35,778 bases of DNA from Eubacteriales bacterium OttesenSCG-928-N13 (lineage in GTDB: Bacteria; Bacillota; Clostridia; Christensenellales; Aristaeellaceae): NCBI GenBank assembly GCA_030265545.1, contig JAJDGF010000005.1, positions 1-35,778 of the forward strand, written 5' to 3'. The first letter of the stretch is position 1, and every line of letters starts with the position of its first letter. Positions 858-10,133 of the stretch are shown piece after piece. The notes under the pieces are model-generated. The model was not told the DNA's origin. It did not search any database and worked only from the letters and a program-made list of their open reading frames with translations. Made by a program: the position numbers and the translations under genes.

Positions 858-901
858 ACCGTTTTCTGACCGTTTTCTGACCGTTTTTTCACCGTTTTTT
901 A
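858..901. repeat. Four tandem 11-bp repeats (ACCGTTTTYTS-like)
   Basis: ACCG begins at 858, 869, 880 and 891, exactly 11 bases apart, giving two identical copies of ACCGTTTTCTG and two variants, ACCGTTTTTTC and ACCGTTTTTTA. An extra ACCGTA sits at 852. Direct repeats spaced by one helical turn are the usual target of OmpR/PhoB-type winged-helix regulators, and such a regulator is encoded immediately to the right (968-1,666). Direct binding is inference. Confidence 0.7.
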
Positions 902-924
902 TCGCAGTATCCGCAGATAAGCAC

Positions 925-951
925 AAAAAAAGACGGGGTTTTACGCCCGCC
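925..951 (-). terminator. Terminator of the response regulator gene
   Basis: On the minus strand GGCGGG (951-946) pairs with CCCGUC (37-32 of the 900s, one G-U), followed by seven U residues from 931 to 925. It starts 17 bases after the response regulator stop, as expected for its transcript end. Confidence 0.65.
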
Positions 952-967
952 TTTAAAATTTCACAGC

Positions 968-1666
968 TTATGACACGAATCGGTATCCCACACCGCGCAC
1001 GCTCTCAATATGGCTTATGTCCGGGGACACGCTGACCTTTTTGCGCAGGCTCCGGACATGGTTGCAGATAACGTCCGAGGAGCCTTCCTCAAAATAGTCG
1101 TTGCCCCATACATGATTATATATCTGCCTCTGCGAGAGCACCTGCCCCTTGTGGAGCATCAGGCAGTAAAGGATATCAAATTCAATTTTTGTCATGGGAA
1201 CTTCCATGTCGTTCAGATAACACCGGTGGTTATCAACGGAAAGCAGGATGCCGCCATACACCAGCGTTCTCCGCTCCTTTTTGTCCGCATCGCGAGTGCG
1301 TCCCTGAAAGCGTGTCATGAACGCAAAAACTCGCTCCGGTGTCTGATCGACGAAGCCCTTTTCCCATGGAGCATAGATGTCCGCTCCGTTATCATAGGCG
1401 GCGATTTCATCCGCACAGTTAAAATTCGATGTAAGGATAATAATCGGAACCGGTGTAAGACTCCGCATGATAAGCGCCTGCGGAAGATAATTCACCGTGT
1501 CGGCGCTGATATCTATATACCAGAAGTCACGCCTCGACAGATAATCAATCGCCTTCGTCATGCTTTCTGCTGTGACCAATTCGATGTCGTAATGCTTGTC
1601 GCTCCAAAATGCTTCCGAATCCTCCCGCAATCGGGGAGAGGAATCTACCACTAAAATCCTGAACAT
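968..1666 (-). CDS. OmpR/PhoB-family response regulator with atypical receiver
   Basis: A 232-residue protein starting MFRILVVDSS; this start is chosen because AGGAGG lies 7 bases upstream, whereas the longer MQIGGV start has none. Residues 1-118 form a receiver domain and 135-230 a winged-helix DNA-binding domain (MTKIEFDILYCLM, QIYNHVWG, VICNHVRSLRKK, VRGVGYRF). The receiver is unusual: the acidic pair is D8-S9 instead of two acids, D52 is in the phospho-acceptor position and T79 is conserved, but the KP motif is replaced by PWEKG (98-104). Phosphorylation may be weak or dispensable. No partner kinase is adjacent. Its 5' leader is interrupted by the IS at 1,711. Candidate targets are the 11-bp repeats at 858-901. 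Family assignment is secure; role unknown. Confidence 0.85.
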   Translation of the reverse strand: MFRILVVDSSPRLREDSEAFWSDKHYDIELVTAESMTKAIDYLSRRDFWYIDISADTVNYLPQALIMRSLTPVPIIILTSNFNCADEIAAYDNGADIYAPWEKGFVDQTPERVFAFMTRFQGRTRDADKKERRTLVYGGILLSVDNHRCYLNDMEVPMTKIEFDILYCLMLHKGQVLSQRQIYNHVWGNDYFEEGSSDVICNHVRSLRKKVSVSPDISHIESVRGVGYRFVS

Positions 1667-1690
1667 GCGCACACCTCCTATTTGCACATA

Positions 1691-1710
1691 AAACTGCCCA
1701 AGGGCAGTAA
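1691..1710. repeat. Left copy of 20-bp direct repeat flanking the IS
   Basis: AAACTGCCCAAGGGCAGTAA is repeated exactly at 3,214-3,233. Its core is a palindrome with 7-bp arms (ACTGCCC / GGGCAGT). IS1182-family elements are known to insert at palindromes and to leave direct repeats of variable length, so this is read as the duplicated target. Confidence 0.85.
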
Positions 1711-3213
1711 CAGCCTGTCAAAAAAGGGTCGCAAAAGGCGGCCTTTTTTGGTATAATGAATCTGGGTGATAAAGATGTTGGAAAAAGCACCGGACTTACG
1801 AGGAAATATAAAAATCATAGATATAGAAGGACTTGTACCGTCAGACCATTTACTGAGAAAAGTGGACAAAGTGGTTGACTTTGAACGGATATATGAGATG
1901 GTAGAGCATCTGTACAGCGAGGATAATGGCCGGCCTGCAGCCGATCCGGTGGTGCTTGTAAAGATGGCGTTTATCCAACATATTTATGGGATAAAGTCGC
2001 TGCGCCAAACGGTAAAAGAAATCGATATGAACATAGCGTACCGATGGTTTCTGCATTATGACATAGATACGCCGATCCCGCATTTCGCAACGGTGAGCTA
2101 CGCATTCGCCACACGATTTCCAAACGAACTGTTTGAAAAGATATTTGCATGGATACTTGAATCGGCGGTTGAACGGCGGCTGGTGAACGCACAGACCGTG
2201 TTTATTGATGCGACACACATCAAAGCCAGCGCCAACAAAAAGAAGAACAGAAAGGTTTTAGCAGAAAAAACGGCTCGCGTATATGACGAACAGCTTAGGA
2301 CTGAAATTGAAGCCGATCGTGAAGCTCACGGCAAAAAGCCGCTTAAGGATAAAGATGATGAGCCGCCGAAAAGCGGCGGACAAACGGTAACCGAATCCAC
2401 AACCGACCCAGACTGCGGACTGTTCCACAAGGGTGAACACAAGGTTGAATTTGCGTATACCGCTCATGTGGCGTGTGATGAACACAATTTCATTTTGGGA
2501 TGTGAGGTAACGCCAGGAAATATTCACGATTCAAAAGTCTTTGACACCGTTTATGACGATGTGACGGAGAAGTTTGAAGAAGTGAAAACCGTAGCGGTGG
2601 ACGCCGGATACAAAACACCATGGATATGCAAAAAGGTACAGGATGACGGCAAAAATATTTCAACGGCATACAAGCGACCGATGACAAAACGAGGTTTTTT
2701 CAGGAGTTATTCGTTTGTATATGACGAGTATTACGACTGTGTGATATGTCCGAACAATCAGGTTTTGAAGTATTCCACCACCAATCGCGACGGTTACCGT
2801 GAATTTAAAAGCAATCCGAAAATATGCGCAGGTTGCCCACAGCTCAGTAAGTGCACCGAAAGTCGTTCTTGTCAAAAGCTTGTGCAAAAGCATATCTGGG
2901 AAGAGTACATAGACCGCGCAGAGGATTTTCGGCATTCGCCGGCAGGCAAAATAAGCTACGGATTGCGAAGTCAGACAATTGAACGTGTATTTGCCGACGC
3001 AAAAGAGAAACACGGCATGAGATACACGATGCTGCGAGGGCTTGACCGGGTACGAAACTGGGTCAGGCTTAAGTTTGCTGCCATGAATCTCAAAAAACTG
3101 GCAATGTGGGCGTAGAAACGCTCTTTTTTATTACTGTTTTTACCGTTTTTAACCCCAAATACGAAAAATATCCACTCTTTGCTTACGCAACAACCGCCTT
3201 CTTTGACAGGCTG
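1711..3213 (+). mobile_element. Complete IS1182-family insertion sequence (1,503 bp)
   Basis: The ends are inverted repeats: CAGCCTGTCAAAAAAGG at 1,711-1,727 matches the reverse complement of the right end (CAGCCTGTCAAAGAAGG, up to 3,213) in 16 of 17 positions. The element carries one full-length transposase gene and is bounded by an exact 20-bp direct repeat of a palindromic target. Identical flanks and an uninterrupted transposase suggest a recent insertion. It separates the leftward response regulator (start 1,666) from the leader and promoter region to the right. Whether transcription from inside the IS reads into either neighbour is not visible. Confidence 0.92.
1766..3115 (+). CDS. IS1182-family DDE transposase
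   Basis: A 449-residue transposase begins at GTG 1,766 (MIKMLEKAPD), or at ATG 1,775 three codons later; neither has a strong ribosome site. A TATAAT at about 1,751 follows the left end. The N-terminal part (LVPSDHLLRKVDKVVDF, RPAADPVVLVKMAFIQHIYGI) is the IS1182-type DUF772 region. Catalytic residues are likely D148 (VFIDATHIKA), D279 (AVDAGYKT) and E406 (SQTIERVFADAKEKHG). Cysteines at about 325, 328, 354, 357 and 363 make a zinc-binding insert common in this group. The length fits a complete IS1182 transposase and there is no frameshift, so the element is probably active. Confidence 0.93.
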   Translation: MIKMLEKAPDLRGNIKIIDIEGLVPSDHLLRKVDKVVDFERIYEMVEHLYSEDNGRPAADPVVLVKMAFIQHIYGIKSLRQTVKEIDMNIAYRWFLHYDIDTPIPHFATVSYAFATRFPNELFEKIFAWILESAVERRLVNAQTVFIDATHIKASANKKKNRKVLAEKTARVYDEQLRTEIEADREAHGKKPLKDKDDEPPKSGGQTVTESTTDPDCGLFHKGEHKVEFAYTAHVACDEHNFILGCEVTPGNIHDSKVFDTVYDDVTEKFEEVKTVAVDAGYKTPWICKKVQDDGKNISTAYKRPMTKRGFFRSYSFVYDEYYDCVICPNNQVLKYSTTNRDGYREFKSNPKICAGCPQLSKCTESRSCQKLVQKHIWEEYIDRAEDFRHSPAGKISYGLRSQTIERVFADAKEKHGMRYTMLRGLDRVRNWVRLKFAAMNLKKLAMWA

Positions 3214-3233
3214 AAACTGCCCAAGGGCAGTAA
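3214..3233. repeat. Right copy of 20-bp direct repeat flanking the IS
   Basis: This copy is identical to 1,691-1,710. Joining the two flanks at this repeat restores a continuous leftward leader from the region at 3,234-3,488 into the response regulator, with the palindrome as a hairpin about 45 bases upstream of its start. Confidence 0.85.
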
Positions 3234-3258
3234 CGTCCGTTTAACTGATTTATTGGCA

Positions 3259-3305
3259 GGAAGCCATATGTAATTGAGCGCTTGACCTTTTTACATTCGG
3301 CTTCC
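3259..3305 (-). promoter_or_regulatory. Leader hairpin overlapping a 10-codon ORF
   Basis: On the leftward strand GGAAGCCGAATGTAA (3,305-3,291) pairs with TTACATATGGCTTCC (3,273-3,259) with 13 of 15 matches and a 17-base loop. The first arm is exactly the last four sense codons and the stop of the small ORF at 3,323-3,291. The second arm contains an ATG (3,267-3,265). This geometry, in which a ribosome on the small ORF would open the stem, is that of translational attenuators. The regulated gene would be downstream (leftward) but is now split off by the IS. Confidence 0.5.
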
Positions 3306-3323
3306 TTGATTAAAAGAAACCAT
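3291..3323 (-). CDS. Possible leader peptide or 5' stub of a lost gene (10 aa)
   Basis: ATG 3,323-3,321 follows a strong GGAGG (3,336-3,332) with 8-base spacing and reads MVSFNQGSRM before TAA. It lies downstream of a consensus leftward promoter and two TetR-type operator copies. Two readings fit. It may be a true leader peptide, because its 3' half forms the arm of the hairpin at 3,259-3,305. Alternatively it is the first codons of a TetR-controlled gene whose remainder was lost by recombination. No sequence similarity supports either; the strong ribosome site is the main evidence for translation. Confidence 0.4.
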   Translation of the reverse strand: MVSFNQGSRM

Positions 3324-3352
3324 CGGAACCACCTCCGTTCTGATTTGAGTTT

Positions 3353-3370
3353 CTACCGACTACTCGATAG
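3353..3370. promoter_or_regulatory. TetR-type operator copy 1
   Basis: CTACCGACTACTCGATAG is one of three copies of an imperfect palindrome, CTAYYGA-N4-TCRRTAG. It lies in the leftward leader, between the promoter at 3,460-3,488 and the small ORF. Confidence 0.65.
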
Positions 3371-3431
3371 GTGAAATGTCAAAAAAATATATGCCGGGGC
3401 TTGCGTTCGCTTGAACCGGATAGAATCAACA

Positions 3432-3449
3432 CTACCGACCATTCAATAG
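3432..3449. promoter_or_regulatory. TetR-type operator copy 2
   Basis: CTACCGACCATTCAATAG matches the other two copies and lies directly downstream of the leftward -10 (3,460-3,465), covering the expected start of transcription. Bound repressor would block leftward initiation. Confidence 0.7.
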
Positions 3450-3459
3450 GTATGGATAT

Positions 3460-3488
3460 ATTATATTCACGCATACACAGCTTGTCAA
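3460..3488 (-). promoter_or_regulatory. Consensus leftward sigma-70-type promoter
   Basis: On the minus strand, TTGACA (3,488-3,483), a 17-base spacer and TATAAT (3,465-3,460) match the housekeeping consensus exactly. It points at the small ORF at 3,323 and, without the IS, at the response regulator. Operators 1 and 2 lie just downstream. Confidence 0.8.
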
Positions 3489-3535
3489 TAGCGAAGAAAG
3501 TCGAATAAAACTTTTTTCATCGACACAATTCGCTC

Positions 3536-3564
3536 TTGTATTTTTCGATGCTTTTCGATATAAT
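3536..3564 (+). promoter_or_regulatory. tetR promoter
   Basis: TTGTAT (3,536-3,541), 17-base spacer and TATAAT (3,559-3,564) precede the tetR gene. Operator copy 3 starts three bases after the -10, so the regulator very likely represses itself. Confidence 0.75.
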
Positions 3565-3566
3565 AT

Positions 3567-3584
3567 CTATTGAATAGTCGGTAG
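3567..3584. promoter_or_regulatory. TetR-type operator copy 3
   Basis: CTATTGAATAGTCGGTAG is the reverse orientation of copies 1 and 2 and covers the tetR transcription start region. Copy 2 and copy 3 share the half-sites CTACCGA and TCAATAG exactly. Confidence 0.75.
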
Positions 3585-3621
3585 GATATCCTGCCGAACG
3601 AACGACAAAGGAGTATGCCTT

Positions 3622-4263
3622 ATGAAGCCGTCAGTTACGGAGCAATTCAAGGCTCAGAATACAAAGGAAAGAATCGTCCTCGAGTCCGCCATCCTTTTTG
3701 CCAAGAGGGGCTTTCGGGACGTGACCATCAAGGATATTGCGGCGGCGGTCGGGATTCAGACCTCCTCGCTGTATTATTATTTTGACAAAAAGGAGTCCAT
3801 TTTCGAGGAAATCATAAGCAACACGTGCGATATGTACCGTGCCTATTTCAAACGGCTCGATAAGGATATGGATAAGGCAACCTGCTTTCAGGATGTGCTG
3901 GACGGGCTGTTTGCCGAGCTGCTTGAGGTGTATGAGATATACATATATTACTGCCTGTGCCTGATAACGACCGAGCAGTTCCGTGACGAGACTGCCCGGA
4001 GCACCTTCAACAACGATGTCATGCGCATCGGCATTGAAAACACAAAAAGGGTGCTTGACCAGTGCGTCGAGCGCGGCTGGGTCAAGCCCTTCAATACGGA
4101 AATACACGCCATCTCTCTTATGAACAACGTTATTGTCGGAAACATCATGCGCACTCACGAGGACATGAAGCAGGAGACGGTGTATGAGCCGGGCAAAATG
4201 TACGCCGATTTGAAGGAAATGATCCTGAATTCGGTGGAGGTTGTGGAGGAGGAAGCATATTGA
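3622..4263 (+). CDS. TetR/AcrR-family transcriptional repressor
   Basis: The 213-residue protein starts at ATG 3,622 with AGGAG 8 bases upstream. Residues 15-62 are a canonical TetR helix-turn-helix (RIVLESAILFAKRGFRDVTIKDIAAAVGIQ, then SSLYYYFDKKESIFEEII). The C-terminal all-helical part is the ligand pocket, which gives no clue to the ligand. Three matching palindromes in the preceding 270 bases and their position over both promoters argue for autorepression plus control of a leftward transcript. The stop overlaps the TTG start of the KdpD-like gene, so the regulator also heads that operon. The divergent target appears lost or interrupted, which leaves its present target uncertain. Confidence 0.88.
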   Translation: MKPSVTEQFKAQNTKERIVLESAILFAKRGFRDVTIKDIAAAVGIQTSSLYYYFDKKESIFEEIISNTCDMYRAYFKRLDKDMDKATCFQDVLDGLFAELLEVYEIYIYYCLCLITTEQFRDETARSTFNNDVMRIGIENTKRVLDQCVERGWVKPFNTEIHAISLMNNVIVGNIMRTHEDMKQETVYEPGKMYADLKEMILNSVEVVEEEAY

Positions 4264-5777
4264 GCTTAAAGAAAAAGCACACTTTATCTGTAATTGGGAA
4301 AAGCTTATTAATGATGTTCATATTTACACTTACTTCCGGTATTTGCTATTCATTTATGTATTCGGGCTTTTCAGAGACAAATATTGTGGTTATATACTTG
4401 CTCGCCGTCCTTGTAACGGTCTGGCTTACCGAAAGTACTGCGTTTGGAATTATTTCTTCTGTTTTAGCGACATTTCTTTTTAACTATCTCTTTACTGATC
4501 CGTATTATGGATTTTCCGTTAGCGACCCCAGCTACATAATTACATTCATAATTATGATGATTTCAGCACTGATTACAAGTACATTACTCTCTCATGCAAA
4601 GCGAAGCGAGAAGCAGGCGCAGGAAAAAGAACGGGAGACTAAAGGTATCTATGATTTAACAAATCATTTAACAGACGCTGCAGATATATATGATATCGCT
4701 AAATTATCAGTTTCTGCCATAAGCGCATGTTTTAACTGTCAAGCCGGATGTCTGTGCTTTGATGAACAGGGCAACCCCGAACCTACTTTTATTCAACAAA
4801 CAACCGATGATAGACAGGTGCGGCGAAAAATTGACGATGTAGATTTTTATAAACGCCAAATTGAGGGGCTTCGCACGCCCTTTGCCGAAGGAGAAGAGTT
4901 TTGCGATTGGCCAATATACGGCAACGAAAGTACGCTGGGCATTATACGCATACCGAACAGCTCGGCTCTTACGATGGATGATTCGCAAACCCGACTACTG
5001 CATTCGATGATTGAAAGCACCGCTCTTGCTATGGACCGATTCCGTTCGACCGAGCAGCGCATGAAAACACGGGAAGATATTGTGAAGGAGAGGTATCGCG
5101 CCAATCTTCTGCGTGCAATTTCACACGATCTGCGTACACCGCTTTCCGGCATTATTGGAACATCCGAAATGTTAACCGAGATGCTTGAGCCAGAGGATAC
5201 GCGTCATGTGTTGGCGCAGGATATCCGTAACGAAGCAGAATGGCTTCATTCGCTTGTCGAAAACATTTTGAACCTTACGCGTTTGCAGGACGGTAGTCTT
5301 GCCATTAATAAACAGATGGAGGCGGTAGAGGAAGTAATAGGAGGAGCAATAGGCCATATTTCCAAGCGCTCGCCGAAGCACGAGATTGTGGTGAATATGC
5401 CTGAGGATTTGATTCTTGTCCCAATGGATGCTAAGCTTGTGCAGCAGGTGCTGATCAATCTGTTGGATAACGCTGTTCGGCACACCCATACAGAGGACGA
5501 AATTGAAATACTTGTCCAGGTAGTCGAGCAAAATGTAAGGATAGCAGTAAGAGACAGAGGCGCAGGAATTTCTGATTCGGATTTGCCTCATGTTTTTCAG
5601 ATGTTTTTCACTTCGCGAGGCAGCCGGACAGATTCGGAGCTCGGCATTGGGTTGGGGCTGGCAATTTGCGAAGCTATCATAGCGTCACATGGTGGCGAAA
5701 TTGCGGCAGCGAATCGCACCGACGGAGCGGGTGCGGAGTTTATATTTACCCTACCAATGGAGGAAGATGAAAAATGA
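4260..5777 (+). CDS. KdpD-like sensor histidine kinase lacking the KdpD N-terminal domain
   Basis: The 505-residue protein starts at TTG 4,260, overlapping the tetR stop, with GGAGGAGG just upstream; translational coupling is likely. Four membrane segments lie at about 12-34, 41-58, 60-78 and 91-111 (the DUF4118 region of KdpD), followed by a GAF-like segment (about 130-265). HisKA carries H289 in the motif ISHDLRTPL, and the ATPase has N404 (LLDNAVRH), DRGAGIS (432-438) and GIGLGLAI (462-469). Standard KdpD is about 900 residues with an ATP-binding and USP-like cytoplasmic region first; that whole part is absent here. Known KdpD senses potassium limitation or turgor. With KdpE and a Trk operon next door, a potassium-related signal is the best inference. 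Confidence 0.88.
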   Translation: MSLKKKHTLSVIGKSLLMMFIFTLTSGICYSFMYSGFSETNIVVIYLLAVLVTVWLTESTAFGIISSVLATFLFNYLFTDPYYGFSVSDPSYIITFIIMMISALITSTLLSHAKRSEKQAQEKERETKGIYDLTNHLTDAADIYDIAKLSVSAISACFNCQAGCLCFDEQGNPEPTFIQQTTDDRQVRRKIDDVDFYKRQIEGLRTPFAEGEEFCDWPIYGNESTLGIIRIPNSSALTMDDSQTRLLHSMIESTALAMDRFRSTEQRMKTREDIVKERYRANLLRAISHDLRTPLSGIIGTSEMLTEMLEPEDTRHVLAQDIRNEAEWLHSLVENILNLTRLQDGSLAINKQMEAVEEVIGGAIGHISKRSPKHEIVVNMPEDLILVPMDAKLVQQVLINLLDNAVRHTHTEDEIEILVQVVEQNVRIAVRDRGAGISDSDLPHVFQMFFTSRGSRTDSELGIGLGLAICEAIIASHGGEIAAANRTDGAGAEFIFTLPMEEDEK

Positions 5778-6472
5778 GTCAAATTAACTATAAAATACTT
5801 ATTGTTGAAGATGATCCGCAAATACAAAAATTTATTTGTCACGCCTTAAAAGGCGAAGGATTTGCTTATATCGCCGTAAATAGCGGGCAGAGTGCGATGA
5901 GCATATTGGTTTCAGAGCAAATAGATATTATGCTGCTTGATTTGGGGTTACCGGATTTTGATGGAATGGACATCATACTTAAAGTGCGTGAATGGTCTGA
6001 GGTTCCCATCATTGTTGTATCTGCACGGGATCAAGACAAGGAGAAGGTTGCCGCATTGGACAACGGAGCTGATGACTACCTGACCAAGCCGTTTTCCACC
6101 TTAGAGCTTCTCGCCCGCGTTCGTGTAGTGGTGCGTCATTTGGAAAAAATGGGTAACCAATCTTCAACAGCGTGTTTGGCAGTCGGAGGGCTCAAGATTG
6201 ATTTAGAGAAGCGGCGAGTCATTCTTGATGAAATTGAAATACATATAACGCCTATGGAGTACAATTTGCTTGCATTGCTGTTTAAAAACATCGGCAAGGT
6301 ACTTACTACCGCTTTTATCCTGCGAGAAATTTGGGGTGTAGGGTATGGAACGGACACACAAGCGCTTCGGGCTTTGATGGCAGGGCTGCGACGAAAAATA
6401 GAGAAAAATCCTGCAAAGCCACGCTACATAACAACAGAGATTGGCGTTGGATACAGACTGGCAGATGAATAA
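5774..6472 (+). CDS. kdpE: KdpE-like OmpR-family response regulator
   Basis: The 232-residue regulator overlaps the kinase by four bases (ATGA), so the pair is translated together. The receiver is complete: D13/D14 acidic pocket, D56 phospho-acceptor (LLDLGLPD), S83 and K105 (YLTKPF). The winged helix (about 130-230) has ITPMEYNLLALLF, REIWGVGYGTDTQALRALMAGLRRKIE and YITTEIGVGYRL, the KdpE-type arrangement. Its targets are probably the paired CTCACA repeats at 6,538-6,585 ahead of the TPR-trk operon, since no kdpFABC genes are in the window. A strong terminator follows the gene, so the trk operon needs its own promoter. Confidence 0.9.
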   Translation: MSQINYKILIVEDDPQIQKFICHALKGEGFAYIAVNSGQSAMSILVSEQIDIMLLDLGLPDFDGMDIILKVREWSEVPIIVVSARDQDKEKVAALDNGADDYLTKPFSTLELLARVRVVVRHLEKMGNQSSTACLAVGGLKIDLEKRRVILDEIEIHITPMEYNLLALLFKNIGKVLTTAFILREIWGVGYGTDTQALRALMAGLRRKIEKNPAKPRYITTEIGVGYRLADE

Positions 6473-6492
6473 AACACTATATATGTTGGTTC

Positions 6493-6522
6493 AAAGCACC
6501 TCGTTTTTGAGGTGCTTTTTTA
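6493..6522 (+). terminator. Terminator after kdpE
   Basis: AAAGCACCTC (6,493-6,502) pairs with GAGGTGCTTT (6,509-6,518), followed by a T-run to 6,521. It closes the tetR-kdpD-kdpE transcript. Confidence 0.88.
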
Positions 6523-6537
6523 TAAACATATTTAAAT

Positions 6538-6601
6538 CTCACAGCATTCTCACAAAGAACTGAGCTTCCTCACAGCACACTCACATCTTTTTTGCTATCC
6601 T
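6538..6601 (+). promoter_or_regulatory. Paired CTCACA direct repeats and putative trk promoter
   Basis: CTCACA occurs at 6,538, 6,549, 6,569 and 6,580: two pairs with 11-base period, 20 bases between the inner copies, all on one face of the helix. A possible -10 TATCCT (6,596-6,601) follows 10 bases after the last copy, with the repeats replacing a good -35. This is the layout of an activator site for an OmpR-type regulator; KdpE encoded just upstream is the natural candidate. The -10 leaves a very short leader to ATG 6,621, so its exact position is uncertain. Confidence 0.6.
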
Positions 6602-6620
6602 ATGGTCAGAGGTGAGAATA

Positions 6621-7025
6621 ATGACTCAACAGAAAATCAATGATCCGCTCGCACTTGAATCTCTATGTAATAAAGTCAGAGAACTCATAAAAAATCGAGA
6701 TTTTGACGAGTGCAAGCAACTGATATGTGACGCAATGCGCGAATATCCTCATGCGCCACATCCACACAATTTGATGGGTATCATATTGGAGAGAGAAGAT
6801 TGTCATATTGAGGCTATGAAGCATTTTCGCGCGGCATGGGCGCTTGACCCTACATATATGCCTGCGCGCCATAACCTCGACCACTACGGAACTTTCTACT
6901 CGAAAGGCTCTTGTGCCTTTGATGAGAGCGAGTGTAAAACAGAAGCAATAAAGGCGGCTCATATCCACTTTGATGAGAATAGAGTTGGACACATAACACG
7001 GGGAGGTAACTATGGGACTGTTTAA
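6621..7025 (+). CDS. TPR-containing protein of the trk operon
   Basis: I use ATG 6,621 (MTQQKINDPL, 134 residues), which has AGAGGTG nearby; an upstream GTG at 6,612 is in frame. About residues 12-45 and 46-85 form helical pairs with TPR spacing (FDECKQLICDAMREYPHAPHPHNLMGIIL and CHIEAMKHFRAAWALDPTYMPARHNL), ending in the typical ALDPTY-P-ARHNL. No membrane segment or enzyme motif is present. Its 3' end overlaps the next trkA gene by 14 bases, so it belongs to the potassium operon, perhaps as an assembly or interaction partner of the RCK proteins. That role is inference from position only. Confidence 0.75.
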   Translation: MTQQKINDPLALESLCNKVRELIKNRDFDECKQLICDAMREYPHAPHPHNLMGIILEREDCHIEAMKHFRAAWALDPTYMPARHNLDHYGTFYSKGSCAFDESECKTEAIKAAHIHFDENRVGHITRGGNYGTV

Positions 7026-7464
7026 GACGATTAAAAAGCAAAATTATACCATCATTATCGGTTGTAGCCGGATGGGGGCAAACCTCGCTGATACACTGTC
7101 GAGCGCAGGGAGAAGCGTTCTCATCATTGATAGAACTGAAGAGGCATTCAAAAAGCTGTCTCCTTTCTTTGGCGGCATTTCCCTTGTGGGCGACGGCACG
7201 GAAATTTTAGTGTTAAATGAAGCGGATATAAAACACGCCACAGAAGTGGTTGCTGTTACGAATAGCGACAATACAAATATTTTGTTGGCGCTGCTTGCAA
7301 AAGAGCATTTTGGCGTTGGGCATGTCATTGCGCGATTATCTGACCCGGAGCGCGAATGTGTTTATCAGGAATTTGGCATTGAAACAATCTGCCCGGCAGA
7401 GCTTTCGGCAAAGGAGATTAACAGGCTGTTAAGCGTGGAAGAGGTTGTGGAGGAAGATGAATGA
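7012..7464 (+). CDS. TrkA-type RCK protein, N domain only
   Basis: The 150-residue protein starts at ATG 7,012 behind GGGGAGGTAACT. It is a single Rossmann RCK_N domain: YTIIIGCSRMGANLA (nucleotide-binding turn), VLIIDRTEE (acidic residue for ribose), GDGTEILVLNEADI and VVAVTNSDNTNILLALLAKEHF. The C-terminal TrkA_C (RCK_C) domain of full TrkA is missing; the protein ends soon after CPAELSAKEINRLL. It overlaps the next RCK gene by four bases. TrkA-type proteins form a cytoplasmic gating ring on TrkH and bind NAD(H) or ATP/ADP. Here the ring may be built from two different chains. Confidence 0.85.
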   Translation: MGLFKTIKKQNYTIIIGCSRMGANLADTLSSAGRSVLIIDRTEEAFKKLSPFFGGISLVGDGTEILVLNEADIKHATEVVAVTNSDNTNILLALLAKEHFGVGHVIARLSDPERECVYQEFGIETICPAELSAKEINRLLSVEEVVEEDE

Positions 7465-8126
7465 AAACAAAAATATTGCTTATCGGCGGATTCAACAAAG
7501 CAAAATCACTTGCAAAATCTTTGATCAAAAAAGGATATAAAGTTACTGCAATCAACAAGGATATGGAATGCTGCCAATTATTAGCGCAAATTGAGCATTT
7601 AACTGTTTTCGTGGGGGACGGCACAAAGCCCTTTGTTTTGGAAGATGCCAATGCGCACAATGCCGACATTGCCATTGCGCTGACTGACAGCGATGCGGAT
7701 AATCTTGTTATTTGCAAGCTGTGCAAAAATAAGTACAATGTGAAGAAAACTGTCGCACTCATTTCTGACCCCAAAAAAACTGACTTTTTTTATCACATGG
7801 GCATTGACTCCGTTGTGTGTGCTATTTCCGTTATTTCCAATGTTATAGAACAGCAGGCCTTTCTTGATGAAATGGCCACCTTGGTTCCGATTGGCGAAGG
7901 GCGTATCAGCATCGCTCAAATCCCAATAAGCCAAGCAGCTCCGGTAGTGGATAAAAAGCTTTGGGAGATTAAGCTTCCGAAGGAAGTGATTATCGGCTGT
8001 ATTATGCGTGGAGAAAAAAATATCGTACCTCGCGGTGATACGAGAATTCTTGCAGGTGATGTGCTGGTGCTTATATCCTCTAATGAGCATGAGGTAGCTG
8101 CAATTCAGGAGCTGACGGGGCGATGA
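7461..8126 (+). CDS. trkA: TrkA-type RCK protein, N and C domains
   Basis: The 221-residue protein starts at ATG 7,461 inside the previous stop region. RCK_N covers about 1-130 (ILLIGGFNKAKSLAKSL, GDGTKPFVLEDANAH, IALTDSDADNLVICKLCK), and RCK_C about 140-220 (ISIAQIPISQAAPVVDKKLWEIKLP, GDTRILAGDVLVLISS). The glycine turn is non-canonical: GGFNKAK lacks the last glycine of GxGxxG, and the acidic ribose residue is replaced (AINKD), so nucleotide binding may be altered. Together with the canonical N-domain partner at 7,012 this suggests division of labour in a heteromeric gating ring. It overlaps trkH by four bases. Confidence 0.87.
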   Translation: MKTKILLIGGFNKAKSLAKSLIKKGYKVTAINKDMECCQLLAQIEHLTVFVGDGTKPFVLEDANAHNADIAIALTDSDADNLVICKLCKNKYNVKKTVALISDPKKTDFFYHMGIDSVVCAISVISNVIEQQAFLDEMATLVPIGEGRISIAQIPISQAAPVVDKKLWEIKLPKEVIIGCIMRGEKNIVPRGDTRILAGDVLVLISSNEHEVAAIQELTGR

Positions 8127-9607
8127 GGGAGGCGCTAAAATACATATTTCAAGGCAGTATATATGGAAAACTTATGCTGATGATAGGCTGCCTGATGCTT
8201 GTTCCAATCCTTCTAATACCGTTTTATCCGGAGGAATTGCCGCATATCATCTCATTTATTATCCCCTCATTGCTCGCAATTGTGTCAGGGCTTTTAGCGT
8301 GTCGCATTAAGTCAAAAAGACCAAACAAAAATCTGCCTCTTTATCAGTCCACAATTCAAGAGAGCAGTCTTCCGGTTTTCTTTGCTTGGTGCTTTGGTTT
8401 TATAACGGGCGCTATTCCATTTATGATTACGGGGAAAATGAGCTTTATCCATGCATTATTTGAATCTGTAAGCGGTTGGACGACCACAGGACTTACCGTA
8501 GTTGATGTTACAACAATGCCCCACATTTTTCTTTTCCACCGCAGCTTCATGCAATTTTGTGGCGGTCTCGGTTTTATCTTAATGGCACTTATGCTCGTTG
8601 GGGGTAAAAAAGCCGTGAGCCTATACAACGCAGAAGGACATCCGGACAGGCTAATGCCAAATCTGAAACGCACGGTACATACGATTTTTATGATTTATAG
8701 CGGCTTTCTTGTGGTTGGCACAGTGGCGTATTGTTTTTTTGGGATGCAGCCATTTGACGCAATATGCCACACAATGAGTGCGTTGTCTACAGCTGGCTTT
8801 ACGACGCAGGCAAACAGCATCGCAGGCTACGGTAGCTTCCCTATAGAGGCAACTACAATTGTGTTAATGATTATTGGTTCAACAAATTTTGCGGTTCTGC
8901 TTCTGCTGACAAGGTTTAAGTTTCGAAAGCTGTTGAAAGTAAGTGAGTTAAGGTTCATGTTTGCTCTTCTCGCTGTTTTTGTGCCACTCGCTGGATTTTC
9001 TCTTATGGCGGAAAGAGGGATGGGTTTTTTCGAGAGTATGCATCATGCGCTATTTGGAATGGTTACCACCTTTTCGACGACCGGATATGCAACAATGGAT
9101 TATGCTCAGTGGCCCGCATTTGCGCTTGGACTCATAATGGTGTTGATGATTATTGGTGGAAGCAGCGGGTCGACTGCAGGAGGAATCAAGCTGTCAAGAA
9201 CTTATTTTTTGTTGCGTACCGCGTATTCAAACATTAAAAAACGTATGATACCATCACGGAATGTAACGGTCATGAACTACTACAACATTCGTGGCAAAGC
9301 TCAAATAAACCACGCATTAATTGTTGATACTCTGGGATTTGTGGTGGCGTATGTTGCTATCGTTATTGTTGGTACGTTACTCATCACGCTTACAGAAGGC
9401 TGCACATTATTTGATGCTGCATTTGAATTCGCATCAGCATTTGGTACAGTCGGAATCTCAAACGGCTTGACGAATGAGGCCACAGGTACGCTTACCCTTA
9501 TTATTGAAATGATTGCCATGATTCTCGGACGTTTAGAAATATTTATCGTTTTTGTTGGTTTAGGTACATGCGTCTCGAGAGTAAAAGGTAAGATATTCAA
9601 GGCGTAA
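8123..9607 (+). CDS. trkH: TrkH/KtrB-family potassium uptake channel subunit
   Basis: The 494-residue integral membrane protein starts at ATG 8,123, overlapping trkA. It shows the four pore repeats of the superfamily of K+ transporters, each with a selectivity-filter glycine: SGWTTTGLTV, STAGFTTQAN, FSTTGYATMD and FGTVGISNGL, in order along the chain. There are two extra N-terminal membrane helices, as in TrkH rather than KtrB. It moves K+ (possibly with Na+ or H+) across the cytoplasmic membrane, gated by the RCK proteins encoded just upstream. The length matches complete TrkH. It ends the operon, followed by a weak hairpin. Confidence 0.92.
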   Translation: MREALKYIFQGSIYGKLMLMIGCLMLVPILLIPFYPEELPHIISFIIPSLLAIVSGLLACRIKSKRPNKNLPLYQSTIQESSLPVFFAWCFGFITGAIPFMITGKMSFIHALFESVSGWTTTGLTVVDVTTMPHIFLFHRSFMQFCGGLGFILMALMLVGGKKAVSLYNAEGHPDRLMPNLKRTVHTIFMIYSGFLVVGTVAYCFFGMQPFDAICHTMSALSTAGFTTQANSIAGYGSFPIEATTIVLMIIGSTNFAVLLLLTRFKFRKLLKVSELRFMFALLAVFVPLAGFSLMAERGMGFFESMHHALFGMVTTFSTTGYATMDYAQWPAFALGLIMVLMIIGGSSGSTAGGIKLSRTYFLLRTAYSNIKKRMIPSRNVTVMNYYNIRGKAQINHALIVDTLGFVVAYVAIVIVGTLLITLTEGCTLFDAAFEFASAFGTVGISNGLTNEATGTLTLIIEMIAMILGRLEIFIVFVGLGTCVSRVKGKIFKA

Positions 9608-9912: not shown

Positions 9913-10005
9913 TGGCGGAGAAGGAGGGATTTGAACCCTCGCGGCAGTTATCCCGCCCTACTCCCTTAGCAGGGGAGCCCCTTCGGCCTCTTGGGTACTT
10001 CTCCA
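9913..10005 (-). tRNA. tRNA-Ser (anticodon GCU)
   Basis: Read leftward, the gene begins GGAGAAGTAC within TGGAGAAGT and ends with the encoded CCA at 9,913. The anticodon arm CTCCC-CTGCTAA-GGGAG gives GCU. A long variable arm, as in class II serine tRNAs, and a T-arm with GGTTCAAAT are present. The 3' end faces the AT-rich left region, the usual insertion side of tRNA-targeting elements. Confidence 0.93.
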
Positions 10006-10043
10006 CGTCTATGAAATTGTCAACGTCGATCATGATATCGAAT

Positions 10044-10133
10044 TGGCGGAGAGAGAGGGATTCGAACCCCCGGTGCCTTTCGACATCACTGGTTTTCAAG
10101 ACCAGCGCCTTCAACCACTCGGCCATCTCTCCA
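10044..10133 (-). tRNA. tRNA-Ser (anticodon UGA)
   Basis: Read leftward it begins GGAGAGATGGCCGAG and ends CCA at 10,044. The anticodon arm CTGGT-CTTGAAA-ACCAG gives UGA. It has a long variable arm and GGTTCGAAT in the T-arm. It is co-transcribed with the GCU gene 38 bases downstream. Confidence 0.95.

Follow-up and report, generated by a model that had tools for sequence, protein, structure and literature searches.

Does a ten-codon open reading frame (ORF) that ends inside a hairpin act as a sensor beneath a TetR-controlled promoter, and what did the leader that carries it once serve? The original prediction described a TetR-controlled leftward leader with the geometry of the erm and cat attenuators, separated from an orphan response regulator by an insertion sequence (IS). 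The window, that is, the whole stretch of DNA analysed, comprises 35,778 nucleotides and corresponds to an entire contig (C139) of a draft genome at 75% completeness. The reading preferred here, held with evenly balanced confidence, is that of a divergent control region served by one TetR, whose leader to the regulator was severed by the IS and whose short ORF and hairpin probably have no sensing role.

Divergent promoters and operator-like sites

The leftward promoter (3460-3488, minus strand) matches the consensus at 12 of 12 positions, with TTGACA at 3488-3483, a spacer of 17 nt and TATAAT at 3465-3460, so that the perfect promoter of the original prediction stands. It was the only promoter-like match within 900-4300. 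Judged from the position of its -10 box, the leftward transcript would start near 3453. Two copies of an operator sequence, CCTATyGArTrGTCGGTAG, follow on the minus strand, and both match this degenerate consensus exactly, as had been claimed. Operator B occupies 3432-3450 (read leftward as 3450-3432, about +4 to +22 of the transcript), and operator C occupies 3353-3371 (3371-3353 read leftward, about +83 to +101), where it may serve as a roadblock site. A third copy that the original prediction did not list, operator A (3566-3584, plus strand), lies directly behind the -10 box (3559-3564) of the tetR promoter. Each of the three operators shares the orientation of the promoter that precedes it.

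The tetR gene (3622-4263, plus strand) encodes a TetR-family regulator with a TetR_N domain (PF00440, E 3.5e-13). The operator-like sites are common to its own promoter and to the divergent one, and it is from their position that the specificity of TetR for them is deduced. A genome-wide operator scan returned, beyond A, B and C, a single site with three mismatches, which is the level of the reversed-pattern control. Because the third operator stands on tetR's own promoter and none was found elsewhere in the genome, the sequence gives good support to autoregulation by TetR and to its control of the leftward promoter, in keeping with the TetR-type control first proposed. Looping between operators B and C was considered and rejected; their centres are 79 bp apart, or about 7.5 helical turns, which would place them on opposite faces of the DNA. 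A second perfect TTGACA occurs at 3377-3382 (minus strand), six bases ahead of operator C. It was dropped as a second promoter at 3382, having no -10 box at a usable distance.

Rightward, tetR heads an operon that continues through a KdpD-like kinase, a KdpE-like regulator, a TPR protein, two TrkA proteins and TrkH (4260-9607, plus strand), with a 4-nt overlap between the tetR stop and the kinase start. Among kinase relatives, the closest found, in genome G096 (46% identity), is followed by the same order of regulator, TPR, TrkA, TrkA and TrkH, without tetR. TetR relatives at 34-42% identity, on another contig of this genome (C141) and in G392 and G451, were set aside, as they occur in other contexts, as single genes beside ligA or other genes and without a Trk operon. 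The one on C141 is a second TetR of this genome, L004 (3793-4389, minus strand), 42% identical to that of the window and with different neighbours. Just past the Trk operon, tandem tRNA-Ser genes (GCT and TGA) lie at 9913-10132 on the minus strand.

The interrupted unit and its surroundings

The IS (1711-3213, plus strand, 1,503 bp) is bounded by the inverted ends CAGCCTGTCAAA and TTTGACAGGCTG and is present once in the genome. Its transposase (1766-3115) carries the domains DDE_Tnp_1_6 and DUF772, and the element is provisionally assigned, as in the original prediction, to the IS1182 family. It is flanked by two copies of a 20-bp palindromic target, AAACTGCCCAAGGGCAGTAA, one on the left (1691-1710) and one on the right (3214-3233). 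Read leftward, the palindrome resembles a weak intrinsic terminator (1708-1693 in the left copy, with a TTTTA tail). When one copy is kept and the IS is removed, the order runs continuously from the leader to the palindrome, to the ribosome site AGGAGGTG and to the ATG of the response regulator at 1666, with 104 nt from the stop of the 10-codon ORF to that ATG. The claim that the leader would reach the orphan regulator at the empty site was therefore correct.

The regulator (968-1666, minus strand), an orphan OmpR-family protein, has AGGAGGTG as its Shine-Dalgarno sequence and an atypical receiver. The receiver scores below the cut-off of PF00072 (E 0.0033), has a serine at the second position of the usual acidic pair, and reads WEKGF at the lysine motif KPF, with a two-residue insertion; the protein may work without phosphorylation. 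A strong terminator-like hairpin (929-954, minus strand) closes the unit. Since the regulator has its own strong ribosome site and terminator-like hairpin, the leader and the regulator gene form one complete unit. No alternative promoter-like site for the regulator was found in 900-4300, and neither the 347 genomes searched from the order nor the 391 from the class contained a match to the regulator at E < 1e-30.

The left end of the contig (1-600, minus strand) holds three genes matching PHROG families and probably represents a truncated prophage end of Heliusvirales-like type. The zinc-finger gene lacks the HTH half found in its relatives and has no ATG at its start; it is overlapped by a SHOCT gene, and a small hydrophobic protein is cut by the contig end. 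The zinc-finger and SHOCT genes are arranged as in phage NatCom_43819, which is assigned to Ca. Heliusvirales, and in related genomes the relatives of the left-end genes adjoin serine recombinases. A conjugative element was dropped as the setting, given the phage families and the NatCom_43819 gene order. The original prediction placed the regulator in a mobile element, which now appears doubtful, as these genes would be a prophage end and the regulator's own terminator-like hairpin stands between them and the regulator.

The 10-codon ORF, its hairpin and the rival explanations

The short ORF, MVSFNQGSRM (3291-3323, minus strand; 3323-3291 read leftward), is preceded by the Shine-Dalgarno sequence GGAGGTG, 8 nt upstream. 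Among ORFs of 6-18 codons in the window, no other has a Shine-Dalgarno match of at least 6 nt at a fitting distance, which makes a genuine translation start likely, and at the empty site the ORF with its strong ribosome site shares one unit with the regulator; translation of the ORF is accordingly a prediction from these signals. The leader hairpin (3259-3305, minus strand; -18.1 kcal/mol) has arms of 15 nt, at 3305-3291 and 3273-3259, in which two positions lack Watson-Crick pairing. Its first arm, GGA AGC CGA ATG TAA, is exactly codons 7-10 of the ORF plus the stop. Both the strong ribosome site with its 10-codon ORF and the overlap of the hairpin with the last codons had thus been described accurately. 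When the hairpin sequence itself was shuffled 2,000 times with dinucleotides preserved, its energy was never reached. Among 300 shuffled versions of the 228-nt leader, 25 (8%) contained a 47-mer of equal stability, and in the window some 250 places on the two strands together fold better than the hairpin or come within 1 kcal/mol of it, so the hairpin as such is just mildly unusual. No Rfam 15 family reached its gathering score in the leader.

A ribosome-stalling attenuator under TetR would add a second layer of control, either by translational means as in erm and cat or through the terminator-like palindrome. In outline, the sequence of promoter, mini-ORF with a strong translation start, hairpin at its last codons, terminator-like hairpin, ribosome site and gene is that of a stalling leader. 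The RNA of the empty site was folded with ViennaRNA, which leaves out pseudoknots, ligands, proteins and kinetics and can miss a switch, and a ribosome on the ORF was modelled by making the region up to the stop codon, or up to codon 5, unavailable. In these folds the regulator's ribosome site lies outside the leader hairpin. Of the six bases in the site's AGGAGG, five are unpaired at 0.84-0.95 and the last at about 0.3, whether the ORF is free or occupied, and the terminator-like hairpin of the palindrome has a probability of about 0.8-1.0 in either state. Hence neither the stem-loop sequestering the regulator's ribosome site that a translational attenuator of the erm and cat kind would have, nor the terminator and antiterminator switched by a leader ribosome that a transcription attenuator would have, is predicted, and no useful competing antiterminator was seen in the folds of the empty-site leader. 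The erm/cat-like attenuator of the original prediction is not supported by this modelling, in which translation of the ORF is coupled neither with the regulator's ribosome site nor with the terminator-like hairpin. The frequency of equally strong hairpins among shuffled leaders also weighs against attenuation. Moreover, we know of no stalling motif that can be recognised in MVSFNQGSRM. Attenuation is on this evidence a doubtful reading. Its fullest form, a two-layer switch in which TetR would gate transcription and translation of the ORF would gate read-through into, or translation of, the regulator, until the IS disabled it at its own terminator hairpin, is quite improbable.

Alternatively, the ten codons may be the stub of a longer TetR-controlled leftward gene that was deleted or overwritten, the regulator having come to lie downstream by chance of rearrangement. 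A very strong ribosome site behind a strong controlled promoter is what an ordinary first gene would have, past the stop the frame is uninterrupted for another 29 codons, up to a TAG just before the regulator's ribosome site, and no conserved leader function was found. Against this, a complete regulator unit follows directly after the leader, and the 40-codon read-through has no similarity in plasmids (none), in phages (E = 8) or in relatives (at least 0.06), 40 residues having little power in such a search. A lost gene is a possible but somewhat unlikely account. The inverted repeat could also be a feature of the DNA, either a protein-binding site or a scar, in which the ORF ends by coincidence. 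Its 15-nt arms, which depart from Watson-Crick pairing at two positions, and the rearranged surroundings (truncated prophage end, IS) speak for such a feature, while the leader has no second copy in the genome and its phage and plasmid matches are no better than chance; we consider this explanation very unlikely.

No locus of the same arrangement was found with the leader DNA, the TetR, the regulator, the leader-peptide pattern, the operator pattern or the 40-codon read-through as queries. Searched against 60 related genomes, the leader DNA gave one 31-nt match (E 1.5e-4), which was discarded as an AT-rich chance match between unrelated genes. The degenerate leader-peptide and operator patterns had no match in viral contigs.

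Preferred explanation and known systems

In the preferred explanation, TetR bound at operator A would repress its own operon, comprising tetR, the KdpD/KdpE-like pair and Trk potassium uptake. On operator B, just past the leftward start, it would repress the leftward transcript, and on operator C, some 80 nt further, it would probably act as a roadblock. Before the IS arrived, that transcript would have served as messenger for the orphan response regulator, its leader of about 260 nt containing the translated 10-codon ORF, the hairpin and the terminator-like palindrome. Because a terminator-like hairpin lies between the promoter and the regulator, read-through to the regulator is not assured. 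Most likely neither the ORF nor the hairpin senses anything; they would represent either an ordinary upstream ORF within a structured leader whose effect is to dampen or protect the messenger, or a vestige. The putative IS1182-family element would then have inserted at the palindrome and duplicated it; a duplicated 20-bp palindrome fits a member of that family that targets stem-loops (PMC5678879). Since this insertion, the regulator has no recognisable promoter and has presumably lost its expression, and RNA from the leftward promoter would enter the IS antisense.

The locus resembles the erm and cat leaders in having a short ORF with a strong ribosome site and a hairpin that starts in its last codons. 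In the erm model, the defining step is that a stem-loop hides the downstream ribosome site (PMC5118997), whereas here the hairpin does not sequester that site. Upstream ORFs in long leaders are also found at toiL-topAI and yxjB, where they are sensory, and yxjB shares a terminator in the leader as well. At toiL-topAI the ORF and the downstream ribosome site are linked through a hairpin (PMC12121999), and at yxjB a hairpin sequesters the ribosome site (PMC6851288); neither kind of hairpin is seen in the present leader. If attenuation were nevertheless true, this would be a translation sensor under a TetR switch ahead of a regulator unconnected to drug resistance, to be compared with toiL, a translation sensor ahead of a toxin-antitoxin pair. 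As it stands, the locus cautions that a short ORF beside a hairpin is insufficient for calling an attenuator.

Further parallels concern the promoters and the IS. The locus is like autoregulated divergent promoters of the TetR family in having operators at tetR's own promoter and at the divergent one; it differs in its divergent target, an orphan response regulator, and in the KdpDE-like/Trk potassium operon that tetR heads. IS1272, cited as a member of the IS1182 family, picks stem-loops or inverted repeats as targets, and its pathway b duplicates the whole stem-loop (Wan et al., 2017, PMC5678879). The present element has transposase domains of the same kind and is likewise inserted at a palindrome, but the palindrome remains on both sides of it, while the insertions described by Wan et al. 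replace the palindrome (PMC5678879). The locus offers a clear case of an IS severing a regulated leader from its gene.
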